DNA of 20,137 nucleotides from positions 1 through 20,137 of IMG/VR virus record IMGVR_UViG_3300048837_002341; one strand, written 5' to 3'. Source of the stretch: a virus. A program made the position numbers and the translations under genes. Shown piece by piece: positions 2,919 to 9,643 of this stretch. Every line of letters begins with the position of its first letter. Position 1 is the first letter of the stretch. The notes under the pieces are model-generated. The model saw only the letters and a program-made list of their open reading frames with translations. It made no database searches and was not told the DNA's origin.

Positions 2919-3458
2919 ATGGTTGCTCCCTCGACCCATGAACCCTATTTCCCCGAACCCTTGATCCGACAAGCCGCCAACTCGATCATCGGCAGATACC
3001 GACTCACCCGCTCGGACCTGCCCGACATCGAGCAATACATCCGACTGAGAATCGTGCAGGGCTGGGTACGGTACGACCCCAAGATAGCGCAGGCCAACAC
3101 CTTTGCGGATCGCCTGGTCTGGGCGGCGCTGGCAACGTTCATCCGCGACCACACGCGGGGCAAACGTGATCCCCGACGGGTCGATGGCTCCCTCGATTCC
3201 TGTTCTAACGAACCGAGCACCACCCGACACGATCATGCGCACGAAGTCCTGCGCTTGGATACCAAGCTTGCCCTTGAGCAACTCGAACCGGATGACCTTC
3301 GCTACGCAGAAGCGATCAAGGACTACGGGCCTTATCAAGCCGCCAAACGAGTGGGATTGACCCGGCGCAAGGCCGAGTCAGCGCTCCGCCGTATCCGTTC
3401 GGTATTCGAAGCAGCGGGCATGCGGTGCTATGTCCAAAGCGACGCGGAGCGCAATTAA
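2919..3458 (+). CDS. Sigma-70-like factor (phage-encoded)
   Basis: A 179-residue protein whose layout matches small sigma-70-family factors. Residues about 14-85 look like region 2: DIEQYIRLRIVQGWVRYDP, then TFADRLVWAALATFIRDH and a basic tail. Residues about 110-168 look like region 4: LALEQLEPDDLRY, then YQAAKRVGLTRRKAESALRR as the helix-turn-helix with recognition helix. The expected role is to direct host RNA polymerase to phage promoters, or to act as a sigma-like DNA-binding regulator. The ATG follows GGAG by seven bases. The stop codon overlaps the next start as TAATG, so it is translated with the primase-helicase gene. The family call is moderately sure; which promoters it serves is unknown. 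Confidence 0.65.
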   Translation: MVAPSTHEPYFPEPLIRQAANSIIGRYRLTRSDLPDIEQYIRLRIVQGWVRYDPKIAQANTFADRLVWAALATFIRDHTRGKRDPRRVDGSLDSCSNEPSTTRHDHAHEVLRLDTKLALEQLEPDDLRYAEAIKDYGPYQAAKRVGLTRRKAESALRRIRSVFEAAGMRCYVQSDAERN

Positions 3459-6061
3459 TGAGCACTCCGAACCTGATCTCATTTAGTGCCGACGTGATCC
3501 GGGAATCCGTACCTGCCACTCTGCGCGACCGCACGCAGTGGGTATGTTGGCGGTCAGTCCAGCGACAAGGCAAATGGACGAAGGTGCCCATCCGCTCAGA
3601 CGACGGCTCGATGGCTGATTCGACACGGCCCCCAACTTGGGGGCCCTTTGATCGCAGTATTCAAGCTGTCCAAGAATTGCCTGACGTGGCCGGCGTGGGG
3701 TTTGTTTTCAGCAGCGATGACCCGTACTGCGGTATTGATCTGGATGACTGCATCGTCGATGGGATGGTCGTACCCGAGGCACGACAGATCATCGATGGGT
3801 TTAGGACGTACACCGAGGTGTCGCCGAGTGGCAAGGGCGTGAAGCTGATTCTGCGCGGGACCAAGCCAGCGTGGGCGCGGTGTAAAGTTACGAAGATCGA
3901 TGGCTTCGGAGCGGTGGAGATCTACGACAAAGACCGGTTTTTCACTATAACCGGCCGGCGCCTGCCTGGCACACCCGAAACCATCGCCGACGGGCAGGCC
4001 GCGCTCGACGAACTGTGCCAACAGCTCTGGCCCCCGAAGCAGCCCCGCGTTTCGGCAGAACCTGCCCGAACTACAGCCGCGATACCGGACGACCAATCGC
4101 TGCTGGCGCGGATGTTTCGCTCGAAGCAGGGCGACGCGATCCGCAGGCTGTGGGACGGTGATGTTTCCGATTACGGCGGGGATCACAGCGCTGCCGACCT
4201 GGCGCTGTGTAACCACCTGGCTTTCTGGACCGGGCGCGACCGAAACCGCATGGACCGGCTATTTCGGGGTTCAGGGCTTTACCGCGCCAAGTGGGAGCGC
4301 GAGGACTATCGAAACTGGACGCTCTCGCGAGCGATCGAGGACTGCACGGAAGTTTTTGGATCGAAGCCCAAGCGCAAAACCGGCGATCACGCAGCGCAGG
4401 GTGAATCAAGGAGTCAACCCATGGACGGGGACACTGACCCTCCGATCTTCCTCGGCGTCGAGGAATGGATCGCGATCGAGAAGACCATCGAAGCCCTGGG
4501 TCGAGACCCCGATCTCTACCAGCGGGGAAACGTGCTGGTCCGTGTGCTGCGGGAGCGCCAGGCCAACGACGGCGTGGTCCGGCCCGAGGGCTCGGCGACC
4601 ATCGCCCAGGTGCCCGTAGCCAACCTGCGGGAGCGGATGACGCGGTACGGCTCCTTCGAATCCATGACTAAAAACGGCGAGATCGTCCCGGCGCGGCCGG
4701 CGGCGTGGCTGGTGTCCGGTGTCGATGCGCGGGGCGAATGGTCGGGCATACGGCACCTGATGGGGGTTTCCGACGCGCCGATCCTGCGGGCCGACGGCAC
4801 CGTCTGGCAGACGCCCGGGTACGACGACATGACGCGCGTGCTGTTCGACCCGCCGGCCGGGATCGAGTTCCCGAGCATCGATCCCGGGGTGGACGCCGAC
4901 GACGCCTCGGCGGCGCTGGATGCGTTAATGGAGATCGTCGAAGACTTCCGTTTCGAGTCCGACGAACACCGCGCGGCCTGGCTGGCGGCGTTGCTGACGC
5001 CCCTGGCACGGTTCGCCTTCGAGGGGCCGTCGCCACTGTTTTTGATCGACGCCAACGTCCGTGGCGCGGGCAAAGGACTGCTCACGCAGACCATCGGCCA
5101 GGTCGTGATGGGCCGGGAGATGCCGGTTTCCAGTTATGCCCATGACTCTGAGGAGATGAGGAAGAAGATCACCGCATTGGCCATCGCGGGCGACCGTATG
5201 GTGCTTCTTGATAACCTCGAGGGCAACTTCGGCAACGACGCCCTGGACCGGGCGCTGACCTCGACCCGTTGGAAAGACCGTATCCTCGGCAAGTCCGAGC
5301 AGGTCGATCTGCCGCTATTGCCGGTGTGGTACGGCACGGGCAACAACGTGCAGGTCGCGGCCGACACGACCCGGCGGATCATACATATCCGGTTGGATGT
5401 TCTTGAGGAGAACCCCGAAGACCGCACCGACTTCAAGCATCCGGACCTGATCGGCTGGCTCAAGCAAGAGCGCGGGCGCCTGCTTGGCGCGGCCCTGACC
5501 ATCCTGTCGGCGTACATCCGCGCCGGCATGCCCAAGCAAAACGTGACGCCGTTCGGCAGCTTCGAGGGTTGGTCCCGACTGGTAAGAGAAGCCGTGGTCT
5601 GGGTGGGTCTGCCCGACCCGTGCCTGACGCGCGTCCGCCTGGCAGAGTCAGCCGACACAACCGCCGATGCGCTGGGGCAACTCATCGATGCGTGGGGTGC
5701 GATCGATCCGCACGGCTGCGGGGTCGTCGTCTCCGAACTCCTCGCCCGCCTTTACCCCGCCGAGATGCAATACCAACCGCGCGACGACGACTCGATCGCG
5801 ATGCGGGCGGCGATTGAGAACGCGACCGGGTGCCCGCCGGGCAAGACGCCGTCCAACCGCCAGGTCGGCAACAAGCTTAAGACGTTCAGGCGTCGCGTGG
5901 TGGACGGCCGTTTCCTCGACACCGACGGGACCAAGACCAAGCACGGCGTGCGGTGGCGGGTCTATTCGGCGGCGTCCACGGCGGGGACATCTTTATTGCC
6001 CGGTGACTCTGGTGACTCTGATGACTCTATTTCGGCCACCTTCACGCGTGAGTTTTTATGA
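3458..6061 (+). CDS. Phage primase/polymerase-helicase fusion
   Basis: An 867-residue replication protein. Residues 20-190 form a primase-polymerase domain: GVGFVFSSDDPYCGIDLDD carries the metal-binding D94/D96 pair, and EVSPSGKGVKL (120-130) and the FFTITGRRL strand (161-169) are typical of archaeo-eukaryotic-type phage primases such as that of phage NrS-1. A helical bundle with DLALCNHLAFWTGRD (247-261) follows at about 215-300. The C-terminal half is a helicase-like ATPase: Walker A NVRGAGKG (533-540), Walker B MVLLDN (581-586), sensor-like GTGNN (626-630) and an arginine pair at 639-640. It should prime and unwind phage DNA. I chose the ATG at 3458, which overlaps the upstream TAA and follows GGAG (3446-3449), over an in-frame ATG 33 bases earlier that has no ribosome site. 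The last codons contain three 9-bp repeats, giving a GDSGDSDDS tail. Confidence 0.88.
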   Translation: MSTPNLISFSADVIRESVPATLRDRTQWVCWRSVQRQGKWTKVPIRSDDGSMADSTRPPTWGPFDRSIQAVQELPDVAGVGFVFSSDDPYCGIDLDDCIVDGMVVPEARQIIDGFRTYTEVSPSGKGVKLILRGTKPAWARCKVTKIDGFGAVEIYDKDRFFTITGRRLPGTPETIADGQAALDELCQQLWPPKQPRVSAEPARTTAAIPDDQSLLARMFRSKQGDAIRRLWDGDVSDYGGDHSAADLALCNHLAFWTGRDRNRMDRLFRGSGLYRAKWEREDYRNWTLSRAIEDCTEVFGSKPKRKTGDHAAQGESRSQPMDGDTDPPIFLGVEEWIAIEKTIEALGRDPDLYQRGNVLVRVLRERQANDGVVRPEGSATIAQVPVANLRERMTRYGSFESMTKNGEIVPARPAAWLVSGVDARGEWSGIRHLMGVSDAPILRADGTVWQTPGYDDMTRVLFDPPAGIEFPSIDPGVDADDASAALDALMEIVEDFRFESDEHRAAWLAALLTPLARFAFEGPSPLFLIDANVRGAGKGLLTQTIGQVVMGREMPVSSYAHDSEEMRKKITALAIAGDRMVLLDNLEGNFGNDALDRALTSTRWKDRILGKSEQVDLPLLPVWYGTGNNVQVAADTTRRIIHIRLDVLEENPEDRTDFKHPDLIGWLKQERGRLLGAALTILSAYIRAGMPKQNVTPFGSFEGWSRLVREAVVWVGLPDPCLTRVRLAESADTTADALGQLIDAWGAIDPHGCGVVVSELLARLYPAEMQYQPRDDDSIAMRAAIENATGCPPGKTPSNRQVGNKLKTFRRRVVDGRFLDTDGTKTKHGVRWRVYSAASTAGTSLLPGDSGDSDDSISATFTREFL
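4408..4423 (+). promoter_or_regulatory. Internal in-frame ribosome site and ATG at the primase/helicase junction
   Basis: AAGGAG (4408-4413) lies seven bases before an ATG at 4421 that is codon 322 of the primase-helicase frame. It falls in the linker after the primase helical bundle and before the ATPase half. It is a better ribosome site than that of the full-length gene, and would yield a helicase-only protein of about 546 residues. Confidence 0.55.
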
Positions 6062-6117
6062 AAAGAATAAATATAGAGCCTGGCGGAAACAGAGTCACCA
6101 GAGTCATCAGAGTCACC
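6002..6117. repeat. Inverted sets of 9-bp iterons flanking AT-rich DNA (candidate replication origin)
   Basis: Left set: GGTGACTCT, GGTGACTCT, GATGACTCT at 6002-6010, 6011-6019 and 6020-6028. Right set, inverted: AGAGTCACC, AGAGTCATC, AGAGTCACC at 6091-6099, 6100-6108 and 6109-6117. Positions 6011-6028 and 6100-6117 are perfect 18-bp reverse complements. The spacer includes 6051-6078, strikingly AT-rich in a GC-rich region. The left set is inside the 3' end of the primase-helicase gene. Iterons beside an AT-rich stretch, next to the replication protein, is the usual build of a replication origin; that reading is inference. Confidence 0.65.
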
Positions 6118-6371
6118 CGCGCCCGTCTCGCGACTCGTTGGCGTGGTTCGCCCACCCCCGGAAGGTTTGCGATCCCCGTAGGGCACTACGCACCCGCGCA
6201 GGGCGCAACACGGGCCAACGTGTGGCCTCACGCGGGGTGCCAGAATGGCATATTTATTTAAATAATTAGGTACTTCCTGTGCATAGAGAGCAGGAGAGGC
6301 CGGCGGGAACGGGCGCATCGTTTGTTTGAGTTGGTTGCAGATGAAAGAAACACACCCCTAGGAACTAAACC
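6062..6371. other. Non-coding region after the replication gene
   Basis: About 310 bases without a convincing gene. It contains the right iteron set, a GC-rich hairpin (GCACCCGCG at 6190-6198 with CGCGGGGTGC at 6231-6240) enclosing a smaller stem (ACACG at 6208-6212 with CGTGT at 6219-6223), and the AT-rich palindrome TTATTTAAATAA at 6254-6265. It presumably also holds the promoter for the methyltransferase gene, but I see no convincing -35/-10 pair. Confidence 0.5.
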
Positions 6372-7766
6372 ATGAAGATCACTCTCACCCCGATCGACAA
6401 TGTCAAGCCCTACGAGCGCAATCCCCGCCTCAACGACCCCGCTGTGGAGGCGGTGGCGCGGTCGTTGAAGGAGTTTGGCTTCCGCCAGCCGATCGTCGTG
6501 GACGCCGAGCACGTGATCGTCGTCGGCCACACGCGATGGAAGGCGGCGAAGCAGATGGGCCTGGCCAAGATCCCCGTCCATGTGGCCACGGACCTCTCGG
6601 CCGAGCAGATCAAGGCCTATCGCATCGCCGACAACCAGACGGCCACACTCGCGGAATGGGATTACAACCTGCTGCCGCTGGAACTGGCCGACCTGCAGTC
6701 GATGAACTACGAGTTGGGACTGTTGGGCTTCGCGGAAGACGAACTGAATCGCCTGCTTGCCAGCGGCGACGCGACCGGTGAAGGGCTGACCGATGAGGAC
6801 GACGTGCCCGAGCCGCCGGACGATCCAATCACGCAGCCCGGCGACCTGTGGGCATTGGGCAAGCACCGTCTGTTGTGTGGAGACTCGTCCAAGCCCGCGG
6901 ACCTGGACCGGCTACTCGACGGGGCGGTGATTCATCTCGTGAACGCCGACCCGCCTTATGGCGTCAAAGTTGAACCGCGCAGCAACAACGCCATCGCCGC
7001 CGGCAACTCATCGTTCGCCAAGGCGAGCAGTAAAGACAAAGGATCGGGCGGTCATCACCAGAAGTTGGACCTGGCCCGTCACCCCGAAAAGTCAAAGCCG
7101 ACACACAAGCAGATGCGGGCTAAGGACCGGCCGCTCGCCAACGACTTCGTGACCGACGAAGCGTTCGACGAGATGCTCGATGCCTGGTTCAGCAACGCGT
7201 CCCGGGTACTGGTGCCCGGCGGATCGTTCTACATCTGGGGCGGGTACGCGAACCTCGGCAACTATCCCGCGCCGCTCAAAAGAGCTGGTCTGTATTTCTC
7301 TCAGGGCATCGTGTGGGACAAGCAGCACCCGGTTCTAACGCGGAAAGACTATATGGGCGCGTTCGAGATCTGTTTTTATGGATGGAAAGAGGGCGCGGGG
7401 CATAAGTTCCACGGTCCGAACAACGCGACGGACCTGTGGCACGTGAAGAAGGTCAACCCGCAGTCGATGGTCCACCTCACCGAGAAGCCAGTCGAGCTGG
7501 CCAAACGCGCGATCGAATACTCTTCCCTGCCCGGGCAGAACGTGCTCGACCTGTTCGGCGGGTCGGGTTCGACATTGATCGGCTGTGAGCAGACGGGCCG
7601 GCGGGCGTTCCTGATGGAACTCGATCAGGCCTACAGCGATGTGATCGTTCAGAGGTGGGAAAAGTTCACCGGGCGGAAGGCGGAACGGATCGCTCAATCT
7701 ACCGCTGCCCTGCCGGAAAAAACCTCGACCGGGACGGCCGAGGTGGAAAACGGAGGTGGTTTGTGA
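6372..7766 (+). CDS. ParB-domain / DNA methyltransferase fusion
   Basis: A 464-residue protein. Residues 1-130 are a ParB/Srx-like domain with VVGHTRWKAAKQMG (50-63), the GHxR box of that fold, and a leading NPRLND segment. The rest is an adenine-N6 or cytosine-N4 methyltransferase. The catalytic DPPY motif is at 193-196, and the S-adenosylmethionine-binding VLDLFGGSGST at 391-401 comes after it. That order marks the beta class. A roughly 60-residue insert rich in Lys, Ser and His follows DPPY and may help target recognition. Such fusions are common in phages, where they mark DNA against host restriction. The ATG is set by AGGA (6360-6363) eight bases upstream. No partner endonuclease lies next to it. 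The methyltransferase call is firm; base and site specificity cannot be read from sequence. Confidence 0.93.
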   Translation: MKITLTPIDNVKPYERNPRLNDPAVEAVARSLKEFGFRQPIVVDAEHVIVVGHTRWKAAKQMGLAKIPVHVATDLSAEQIKAYRIADNQTATLAEWDYNLLPLELADLQSMNYELGLLGFAEDELNRLLASGDATGEGLTDEDDVPEPPDDPITQPGDLWALGKHRLLCGDSSKPADLDRLLDGAVIHLVNADPPYGVKVEPRSNNAIAAGNSSFAKASSKDKGSGGHHQKLDLARHPEKSKPTHKQMRAKDRPLANDFVTDEAFDEMLDAWFSNASRVLVPGGSFYIWGGYANLGNYPAPLKRAGLYFSQGIVWDKQHPVLTRKDYMGAFEICFYGWKEGAGHKFHGPNNATDLWHVKKVNPQSMVHLTEKPVELAKRAIEYSSLPGQNVLDLFGGSGSTLIGCEQTGRRAFLMELDQAYSDVIVQRWEKFTGRKAERIAQSTAALPEKTSTGTAEVENGGGL

Positions 7767-7768
7767 TC

Positions 7769-8152
7769 CTACGCCTCGCGGAACTGCGGCGGGTGGCCCT
7801 CAATCAGGGCATAGAACTCGGTCATGGCGTGCTCGTAGAAACCGTGTGCGTAGCCGGGAGAAACGTAACCCAAGCGCCCGCCCCCGGAGGGTTTTTCAAG
7901 CAGGCCGCGCTCGGTCAAGAGCTGCAGCGCCACGTTGACCTGCGTCATGGGTGCGTCGATCGCGTCGGAGATCGACTGGATCTTCACGCCCTCGCGCTGG
8001 TGGTCTTCGAGGTAGCCGGCCAGCTGCTCGAAGACCTGTTTCGAGCAGCGGTGGGCGTATTCGCGTCCGTCCGCCAGCTTGACGACCCGCTCCAGCGCCC
8101 CACCAAGTGTGCCTCGGAACTCAATGTCGCGGTTATCTATGGATCGTCGCAC
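7769..8152 (-). CDS. Winged-helix-like putative regulator
   Basis: A 127-residue protein, last gene of the leftward cassette. Residues about 40-100 (VFEQLAGYLEDHQ, IQSISDAIDAPMTQVNVALQ, LLTERGLLEKPSGGGRLGYV) give the helix-helix-wing pattern of MarR/ArsR-like winged-helix domains, so it probably binds DNA. The start is GTG at 8150-8152, three bases after the upstream gene's stop and preceded by AGGGAG, so it is translationally coupled to the HARE-HTH gene. It converges on the methyltransferase gene with a gap of two bases. I do not recognise a named family. A phage or planctomycete regulator is inferred. Confidence 0.72.
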   Translation of the reverse strand: MRRSIDNRDIEFRGTLGGALERVVKLADGREYAHRCSKQVFEQLAGYLEDHQREGVKIQSISDAIDAPMTQVNVALQLLTERGLLEKPSGGGRLGYVSPGYAHGFYEHAMTEFYALIEGHPPQFREA

Positions 8153-8155
8153 GGC

Positions 8156-8737
8156 TCACGCTCCCTTCGCCAGGGTGAACCGGCCGCGTTCGACCTTCTG
8201 GAACCGGGCGTCCTTGCCCTTCTTTTGCAGCTCGCGGAGGATCGCGCTGTAGAGCGTGGCGTGGGGCGTCTTACCGCCGCTACGGGGCGACCAGAGGTTC
8301 TGCTCGGTGATCTGTGCGACCAGCTCCTTCGTGCCCATCGGCTCTTTAGCTTTGCCGAGGACCTGCACGGCCGCGTCGATCAGGCTGAGCTTCTTCTCCT
8401 TCGGGGCACCGGCCTTCTTCGCGGCGGGCGTGGGCTTGTCGGCCTTGGCCTGCGCCTGGTTGACCCGGGCCCGCCGTTCGGCGATGGAGAGCTTCTTCTT
8501 GACCGGCTGCTTGGGTGCGCGCTTGGCGTCGTCTTTTCCGGACGCAGGGGCCAATGCAGGGGTCGCGACGCGGCCGCGCAGGCGCTGGGCGCTCTTGATC
8601 CGCACCTGCTTGTTCGTCACCAGGTTCGTGGCGTCCCAGCCCCCGCGCGGGTTCTCTTTGTCGATCCGCACTGGCACGACCTTGTCGCTGACCTTGGCGG
8701 TGTAGGTTTCGCCGATCTTGACTTCGTCCTTCTTCAC
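8156..8737 (-). CDS. HARE-HTH domain protein
   Basis: A 193-residue protein. Residues 1-57 look like a small SH3/KOW-like barrel (VKIGETYTAKVSDKVVPVRI, then GGWDATNLVTNKQVRIKSAQ). Residues 58-115 are a basic Lys/Ala-rich linker. Residues 117-190 match the HARE-HTH winged helix: LSLIDAAVQVLGKAKEPMGT, KELVAQITEQNLW, then TLYSAILRELQKKGKDARFQ and GRFTLA. HARE-HTH domains occur with restriction enzymes, RNA polymerase delta and chromatin proteins, and have been proposed to sense DNA modification. The start is GTG at 8735-8737 behind AGGAG. A role next to a methyltransferase gene fits modified-DNA sensing, but that is inference. Confidence 0.82.
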   Translation of the reverse strand: MKKDEVKIGETYTAKVSDKVVPVRIDKENPRGGWDATNLVTNKQVRIKSAQRLRGRVATPALAPASGKDDAKRAPKQPVKKKLSIAERRARVNQAQAKADKPTPAAKKAGAPKEKKLSLIDAAVQVLGKAKEPMGTKELVAQITEQNLWSPRSGGKTPHATLYSAILRELQKKGKDARFQKVERGRFTLAKGA

Positions 8738-8779
8738 GATGGTTCTCCTTTCGGGAGGGTTAATGAAAGCGAGCCGGGC

Positions 8780-9004
8780 TCACAGTCCCAGTTCGTCGCA
8801 GAGTTGTTCGTATTCGCCGGTGCCCAGCAGTTCGATGAGGAACTCGCCGAACCAGGCGACCTCGCGTTCGATCTGCGGCTCGGGTTCGCCGTGCCGCAGC
8901 CCGCACTTGGCGGCGATCAGCGCCACGCCGTGTGGCGAAAGGTTCTCGCGGAGCGCGACCGCGAGCAGGTGTCGCGGGTTCGGTTCGTGGTTCGTTCTGG
9001 ACAT
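8780..9004 (-). CDS. Small hypothetical protein
   Basis: A 74-residue acidic, helical protein with no family I recognise. It contains NPRHLLAVALRENLSPHGVA and a C-terminal helix REVAWFGEFLIELLGTGEYE. There is no Cys pair, signal peptide or membrane helix. The ATG at 9002-9004 is preceded by AGGAG seven bases away, the same ribosome site pattern as the other genes of the cassette, which supports it being real. It sits between the HARE-HTH gene and another small protein gene and is probably transcribed with them. Confidence 0.72.
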   Translation of the reverse strand: MSRTNHEPNPRHLLAVALRENLSPHGVALIAAKCGLRHGEPEPQIEREVAWFGEFLIELLGTGEYEQLCDELGL

Positions 9005-9037
9005 GGCGTTCTCCTCTTGGGGGTAGGTTCAGATGGT

Positions 9038-9301
9038 TCAATCCGCGAAGCGTTGAAGCTCGCGCAGGTAATCGTGGATCATGCTGTTGGTGCCCCGCAC
9101 CCCGTCGAGTTGCAGTTGCAGGCATTCGGCCATCGACCAGAGGTCGTCTTCGCTGTCGGCCTGGACGTGGTGGACCCGGCCGTCGGGCTGCGTGGGGGTG
9201 AGGATCGTGACGGTGATGTATTCACTATTCCGGGGGCGGGTGATGGTGGCGTAGTGGCCGTTACCGGCGTCGCCTTCGAGATCGATTCGGGTGGTTCGCA
9301 T
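9038..9301 (-). CDS. Small hypothetical protein, beta-rich N-terminus
   Basis: An 87-residue protein. The first half forms likely beta strands (HYATITRPR, EYITVTILTPTQ, GRVHHVQADS). The second half is one or two helices with DDLWSMAECLQLQLDGV and a short HDYLRELQRF tail. No motif identifies a function. The ATG is placed by AGGAG seven bases upstream. It is the second gene of the leftward cassette. A small phage accessory protein is the likeliest reading. Confidence 0.72.
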   Translation of the reverse strand: MRTTRIDLEGDAGNGHYATITRPRNSEYITVTILTPTQPDGRVHHVQADSEDDLWSMAECLQLQLDGVRGTNSMIHDYLRELQRFAD

Positions 9302-9328
9302 GGCGTGTCTCCTGTTGCGTGTGCGTGG

Positions 9329-9532
9329 TTACTTCTGCTTGCGGCTCTTTTTGCCTGCCTCGAACCCGGCGGCGTAGGCGTCGAGCAGCGCCTGCTTGAT
9401 GCTCCAGACCGCCTGTTCTTTGAAGTCCAGGCTGTCCATCTTGCGGGTCTCGAGCGTCTCGAGGTCGAGCACCTCCCGGGCGATCCGGTCGGCGGTCTTC
9501 AGGGCCTGCTTGGTGGGTTTGGCGTTTGCCAT
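9329..9532 (-). CDS. Small basic helical protein, first gene of the leftward cassette
   Basis: A 67-residue protein starting MANAKPTKQ, with a long amphipathic central stretch (ALKTADRIAREVLDLETLET, then AVWSIKQALLDAYAAGFEAG) and a lysine-rich end. I chose the ATG at 9530-9532 because GGAG lies six bases upstream. The frame also extends to an upstream GTG at 9574, but that lacks a ribosome site. It is the most upstream gene of the five-gene leftward run, so the promoter should lie in the 110 bases between it and the divergent gene at 9644. I see no clear hexamer pair there. Confidence 0.7.
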   Translation of the reverse strand: MANAKPTKQALKTADRIAREVLDLETLETRKMDSLDFKEQAVWSIKQALLDAYAAGFEAGKKSRKQK

Positions 9533-9643
9533 CGCGGTTCTCCGTGGCTTGGTGTTCGTGGTCTTCACGGTCACATTAAGCCTCGATCCGGGCCGGACAT
9601 CAAGGCATTAATTCCAGTATTTGCAGTTATTTAAGAGATTTTC

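Follow-up and report, generated by a model that had tools for sequence, protein, structure and literature searches.

The replication origins of PICIs lie 3′ of the rep gene, always consist of two iteron sets around an AT-rich region and are functional in E. coli, an organisation that has been called unique to PICIs among known bacterial replicons (PMC6092414). In pRN1 an essential 100-nt stem loop is found 3′ of orf904, an AEP-SF3-wH gene, and the same has been proposed for some phages (PMC4234260). The C-terminal domain of SCCmec Cch2 binds iterons downstream of its own gene (PMC7581432). In P4, annotated type I repeats (GGTGAACA) form crr directly 3′ of the alpha primase-helicase gene; they are mirrored with a 9-bp step, and two units face inverted units over an AT-rich spacer of about 35 bp.

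The DNA analysed here, referred to as the window, is a viral contig 20,137 bases long, probably an incomplete record, from an uncultured tailed phage whose closest relatives are in Planctomycetota. The presence of terminase, portal, capsid, cement and head-tail joining genes shows that it belongs to a tailed phage and not to a satellite; it thus differs from PICIs, which are satellites without head and packaging genes of their own. At the 3′ end of its primase-helicase gene is a 116-bp mirrored array of short repeats, which is probably the replication origin of this phage, or one of its origins, of the type used by self-loading D5/SF3 helicases, like P4 crr and the PICI origins. The sequence-only reading had proposed a candidate origin here, and the proposal has gained support from the layout conserved at the gene 3′ end in relatives and from the documented counterparts P4 crr, the PICI origins and pRN1, which occupy the same place.

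The array resembles P4 crr in its position, in its mirrored 9-bp step and in a GGTGA-core unit (GGTGAACA in P4, GGTGACTCT here). However P4 is a satellite with a duplicated crr and a separate ori, and its units point the opposite way relative to the spacer, whereas in the window a single compact element has two sets of three strict units, and the tailed phage that carries it has terminase, portal and head genes of its own. As in PICIs and SaPIs, the element is immediately 3′ of the initiator gene, two iteron sets flank an AT-rich region, and a predicted D5-like fold is common to the helicase and SaPI5 PriRep1. The comparison covers layout and helicase fold, and the window build is found in phages and prophages with structural genes.

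Shared with pRN1 are an AEP primase, an SF3 helicase and a DNA-binding C-terminus (a candidate in the window), along with a palindromic element of about 100 nt 3′ of the gene; in pRN1, as in the family of the window, the sequence drifts and the layout stays. However pRN1 is described as a stem loop without iterons, whereas the arms in the window are tandem 9-bp units in which mirrored pairing adds little beyond unit identity. NrS-1 polymerase is homologous to the N-terminal PrimPol/HBD part of the window protein, but it recognises TTTGGTTA, present twice near the genome centre (PMC8718748, PMC7102993), whereas the window array follows the helicase and not the primase. The TTTGGTTA site is absent from the array (positions 5996-6123, read directly), and no 9-bp mirrored array is reported for NrS-1 in these two papers. 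SCCmec Cch2 is likewise a D5-type helicase with iterons downstream of its gene, to which its C-terminal domain binds; its iterons are however three 5-nt direct repeats, and its inverted repeats are dispensable for binding (PMC7581432).

Bacillus phage phi105 has TGTTACTTTTGTTACT / AGTAACAAAAGTAACA with a 9-bp step and an 82-nt AT-rich spacer 3′ of an NrS-1-like primase gene, but with two clear units per arm and more copies outside. In this locus (L069) four TGTTACTT-type blocks follow the primase gene at 6364-6634, and among them is a mirrored pair that encloses the 82-nt spacer. This block array is likely the origin of a classical laboratory phage.

The mirrored array and its surroundings

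The GRTGACTCT unit is repeated three times in direct orientation at 6002-6028 and three times inverted at 6091-6117, the two sets facing each other across a spacer of 62 nt (Table 1). The exact unit occurs six times in the 20,137 bases, each time within the array. The arms match perfectly over 18 bp (6011-6028 with 6100-6117) and continue inward to 37 nt with 89% complementarity (6002-6038 with 6081-6117). The facing copies, the distance between them and the 18-bp match had all been described in the sequence-only reading, and the positions proved exact. The array reaches 52 of 54 in a mirrored 3+3 score that assumes no fixed consensus. No other place in the window exceeds 40, and none of 10 dinucleotide shuffles of the surrounding sequence exceeds 38; the array is not due to chance.

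Table 1. Features of the window in and around the mirrored array
Feature	Position	Strand	Basis or remark
Primase-helicase gene, 878 aa	3425..6061	+	N-terminal NrS-1-type PrimPol and HBD (PF22763); C-terminal D5/SF3-like helicase half (predicted)
Helicase C-terminal domain, three helices and a beta-hairpin; proposed iteron reader	5705..5977	+	Predicted model, winged-helix-like topology
Low-complexity protein tail GDSGDSDDSISATFTREFL and stop	6002..6061	+	Coded by left arm and part of spacer
Iteron L1 (outer) GGTGACTCT	6002..6010	+	Sequence read
Iteron L2 GGTGACTCT	6011..6019	+	Sequence read
Iteron L3 (inner) GATGACTCT	6020..6028	+	Sequence read
Spacer, 58% AT, about 35% in flanks; candidate unwinding region; AT-richest part 6055-6075	6029..6090		Composition
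Left inner box ATTTCGGCCACCTTCACGCG; TTTCnACCCCTTCGCGCG in close relatives	6029..6048	+	Alignment
Right inner box TGGCGGAAAC; GGGCnGAAAC in relatives	6081..6090	+	Complementary to part of left inner box
Iteron R3 (inner) GGTGACTCT	6091..6099	-	Sequence read
Iteron R2 GATGACTCT	6100..6108	-	Sequence read
Iteron R1 (outer) GGTGACTCT	6109..6117	-	Sequence read
Terminator-like hairpin and T-rich tail	6237..6260	+	Pattern match only; downstream of array, adjoins AT-richest 20-mer 6249-6268
ParB_N domain and N6/N4 DNA methylase gene	6372..7766	+	Next gene after array

The array overlaps the 3′ end of the replication helicase gene, and two short-iteron sets enclose an AT-rich region, as in origins of the PICI/P4 type. 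The left arm codes for GDSGDSDDS, in agreement with the sequence-only reading, and the stop codon is at 6059-6061. The spacer had also been said to hold the most AT-rich stretch of the neighbourhood. It is richer in AT than its flanks, but the AT-richest 20-mer (95%, 6249-6268) is to the right of the array, and the stretch in the spacer (6055-6075, 90%) comes second. Cumulative GC skew, which had been suggested as a check on the origin, stays flat between about 5.3 and 7 kb and has its maximum near 12 kb. With no switch at 6 kb it does not support an origin there, but the record is an incomplete one of 20 kb, in which skew counts for little in either direction and does not decide the origin site.

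Several other features of the neighbourhood are recorded here. Just upstream of the primase-helicase gene, at 2919-3458, is a small protein weakly similar to phage sigma factors (phrog_1740, E=5e-6). A 742-aa open reading frame at 437-2665 has no match in Pfam, PHROG or PADLOC. A long plus-strand open reading frame at 7655-9634 (659 aa) overlaps minus-strand genes and is probably spurious; one of the overlapped genes, at 8156-8737 on the minus strand, has a HARE-HTH domain.

Arrays in related loci

Loci coding for relatives of the helicase half were gathered from viral contigs and genomes, and the 46 that were left after removal of duplicates and fragments were scored around the gene 3′ end, with windows from the same loci as controls. 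With flexible spacing, a score of at least 35 was reached in 36 of the 46 loci and in 1 of 184 control windows, and a score of at least 36 in 31 loci and no control window. Score and thresholds were chosen after the first examples had been seen, and because of the kinship of the loci the counts cannot be treated as independent. The sequence-only reading had named absence of the repeats from relatives with a conserved gene as the result that would speak against an origin; the opposite was found, the array being present at the gene 3′ end with its unit letters changed. Helicase-half relatives with an array are spread over Planctomycetota, Myxococcota, Gammaproteobacteria, Acidobacteriota and Dependentiae.

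When rigid spacing was applied, the period spectrum showed 9 bp in 18 of the 46 loci and in 1 of 518 windows. Lesser peaks appear at 8 and 10 bp, with nothing comparable at 7 or at 11-21 bp, and in about 25 loci the gene 3′ end holds the best rigid array of the whole locus. Most spacers are 57-85 nt long and they are usually AT-richer than their flanks. Four loci (L024, L036, L037 and L060) have spacers with about 30% AT, thus AT-richness is not universal. Two loci, L039 and L045, show the opposite polarity and spacers of 12-18 nt. Nine of the 46 loci score below 34 (L025, L026, L031, L046, L052, L053, L058, L059 and L062), and a wider search of L025, L046, L058, L059 and L062 gave no convincing array. 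A repeat search in the named phages Paracoccus R3 and TPWB-08 also showed no array.

Important is the position of the arms relative to the gene. They are found inside it in any reading phase, spanning the stop codon or beyond it, and several loci have both arms within the coding sequence. Thus it is the DNA and not the peptide that is under selection, as the sequence-only reading had supposed. In a few loci an uneven spacing is itself mirrored, with steps of 8,9|9,8 in L019 and L020 and of 9,10|10,9 in L041 and L063, a pattern that fits two equal complexes loaded in opposite directions.

Further repeats were seen during these comparisons. L022 holds two arrays, one of GTGAGTC units with an 8-bp step and, beyond it, another mirrored one whose step is 10 bp (AGTCCCTAG), at about 5718-5860, some 260 bases past the stop codon. 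In the archaeal virus vir525 (L070) many inverted TACCCGCA copies are found 3′ of the helicase gene, at 4577-4910. An unrelated viral contig (L013) has GTAGCAGC-type repeats followed by three GTGACTCTG units at about 680-790.

The repeat unit and its candidate reader

The N-terminal part of the window protein matches PF22763, the NrS-1 helix-bundle domain (HBD), with E=1.3e-24 and NrS-1 primase structures with E of about 1e-37 (PDB 6a9w, E=1e-37), and thus combines PrimPol and NrS-1 HBD homology as NrS-1 polymerase does. The C-terminal helicase half matches no Pfam family, and PDB profile searches with this half and with the C-terminal domain gave no significant match. The AlphaFold2 model has a mean pLDDT of 89, and in a fold search the predicted helicase half resembles AsfvPrimPol (2e-8), SaPI5 PriRep1 (3e-7), the NrS-1 CTR (2e-6) and pox D5/E5. 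As modelled, the helicase half has a D5-like/SF3 fold; a helicase initiator of this type, with primase fused or nearby, is also characteristic of PICI/P4-type systems. The C-terminal domain precedes the GDSGDSDDS tail at the protein end. A Foldseek comparison of the isolated domain with the PDB gave no significant match (best E=0.3), and the term winged helix therefore rests on topology.

The letters of the unit differ by lineage. Among the units are GTGTATCTG in L004 and L030, ATGTATTTG in L005, GCGAGTCTA in L027, GGTGAGTCT in L028, GGGACTA in L024, L036 and L037, GCGGACTCT in L041, CGGAGTCGC in L042, GGTGGATCT in L047 and GGTTAGGAT in L057. In the closest relatives the inner boxes next to the arms are kept (left TTTCnACCCCTTCGCGCG, right GGGCnGAAAC) while the units drift. 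An exact-unit search of viral contigs returned mainly unrelated coding repeats. Judged from the sequences compared, the layout travels between genomes and the unit does not.

Loci with similar C-terminal domains tend weakly, but beyond chance, to have similar units (Mantel r=0.24, p=0.0005); for the helicase core the value is r=0.19 (p=0.006). The primase module is of the NrS-1 HBD type in the window and L028, Prim-Pol PF09250 in L018, L019, L022, L030, L035, L040 and L043, Zn-ribbon/Toprim in L024, L037, L041 and L042 (with some of the Toprim matches below the Pfam cut-off) and RepB_primase in L066, and no fused primase was recognised in L008. Helicase, C-terminal domain and array persist across loci while the primase domain is swapped; among these loci the array goes with the helicase and its C-terminal domain, not with the primase. 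Thus the most likely reader of the array, and the simplest one to assume, would be the helicase C-terminal domain, by analogy with SCCmec Cch2.

Alternative roles and a possible mode of origin function

There is a small chance that the array is a cis-required or control element for the replication protein, acting in handcuffing, in autoregulation or as a P4-crr-like accessory site, with initiation elsewhere in the phage. In P4 the type I repeats form crr, beside alpha, and recur at a distance of about 5 kb, where they are part of a separate ori; moreover only 20 kb of the virus is available, and the skew points nowhere near 6 kb. However the units do not recur elsewhere in the window, and in PICIs and pRN1 a single element 3′ of the gene acts as origin (PMC6092414, PMC4234260).

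Very improbably, the repeats are sites at which the PrimPol domain uses the template for primer synthesis (5′-GTG(A/G)-3′ for NrSPol) and not sites for helicase binding. The unit contains GTGA, NrSPol favours GTGA/GTGG templates (PMC8718748) and the protein has the NrS-1 HBD. This role was rejected because primase type varies between array loci: the array is kept where the primase is Toprim/DnaG-like, RepB-like or not fused. Many units (GCGAGTC, GGGACTA, GGGGAAT) also lack GTG, and the pRN1 origin tolerates loss of its GTG motifs (PMC4234260).

A terminator, attenuator or mRNA-stabilising hairpin at the operon end would account for the strong potential hairpin at the gene end (single-stranded DNA fold of -31.9 kcal/mol, z=-6.8), but is highly improbable. 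No T-run follows the right arm, a separate terminator-like site is present downstream (Table 1), and several relatives have both arms inside the gene. Nor does a hairpin require tandem 9-bp steps or units that are interchangeable between arms. An RNA element was rejected since the array has no Rfam match. Unit identity across arms averages 6.02 of 7 in register and 5.94 off register (p=0.065), an excess that is not significant, and iterons are favoured over a strict stem loop, though extrusion may have a role.

Equally slight is the probability that the array serves the adjoining ParB-methylase gene as regulatory or partition sites, either parS-like or controlled by methylation. The gene is next door, and GANTC, a possible methylation site, is found in the units of the window and of about 10 other loci. 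However several methylase-bearing loci have units without GANTC, and in the fetched stretches most array loci are without a related gene, so this role was rejected as a general one; among the loci compared, the ParB-methylase gene is not a constant partner of the array. That the array is an inserted repeat or a low-complexity coding tail (GDSGDS) without DNA function has next to no probability, even though the left arm codes for a repetitive tail and GGTGACTCT repeats occur in coding DNA of unrelated phage contigs, as it is contradicted by the comparative data, namely a position conserved with diverging letters, arms in any reading phase and a mirrored right arm outside the gene.

If the array is an origin, as is probable, then by analogy with related systems the phage's own D5/SF3-like helicase would bind each 9-bp unit through its C-terminal domain, and the three units of an arm would nucleate one helicase ring. 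Mirrored arms would give two rings loaded in opposite orientations. The AT-rich 62 nt that separate them would be melted and the rings would travel outward, while the fused primase domain would prime both strands for bidirectional replication. Chances are about even that this reflects a general origin grammar of a large unnamed family of D5-like helicases, consisting of three units per arm with an 8-10 bp step, mirrored over a spacer of about 60 nt, in which a drifting unit of 7-8 bp coevolves with the C-terminal domain and primase modules are exchangeable.

Dozens of related phages and prophages, each with its own repeat word, thus share a design known until now mostly from satellite phages and small plasmids, and the organisation termed unique to PICIs (PMC6092414) extends to phages with structural genes. 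P4 crr, the PICI origins and the pRN1 stem loop can be placed in one frame, and in this build the origin goes with the helicase and not with the primase. The odd repetitive tails of such proteins (GDSGDS, TPATPAT) would be explained as by-products of origin DNA. Unit and C-terminal domain vary in pairs, and so form a natural data set from which a protein-DNA recognition code could be derived. Most phage and prophage origins are unmapped, and the array build is recognisable from sequence and spans several phyla. Should the general grammar hold, origins could be called from sequence alone, and each prophage would have a private origin address, by which related phages would replicate independently in one cell.
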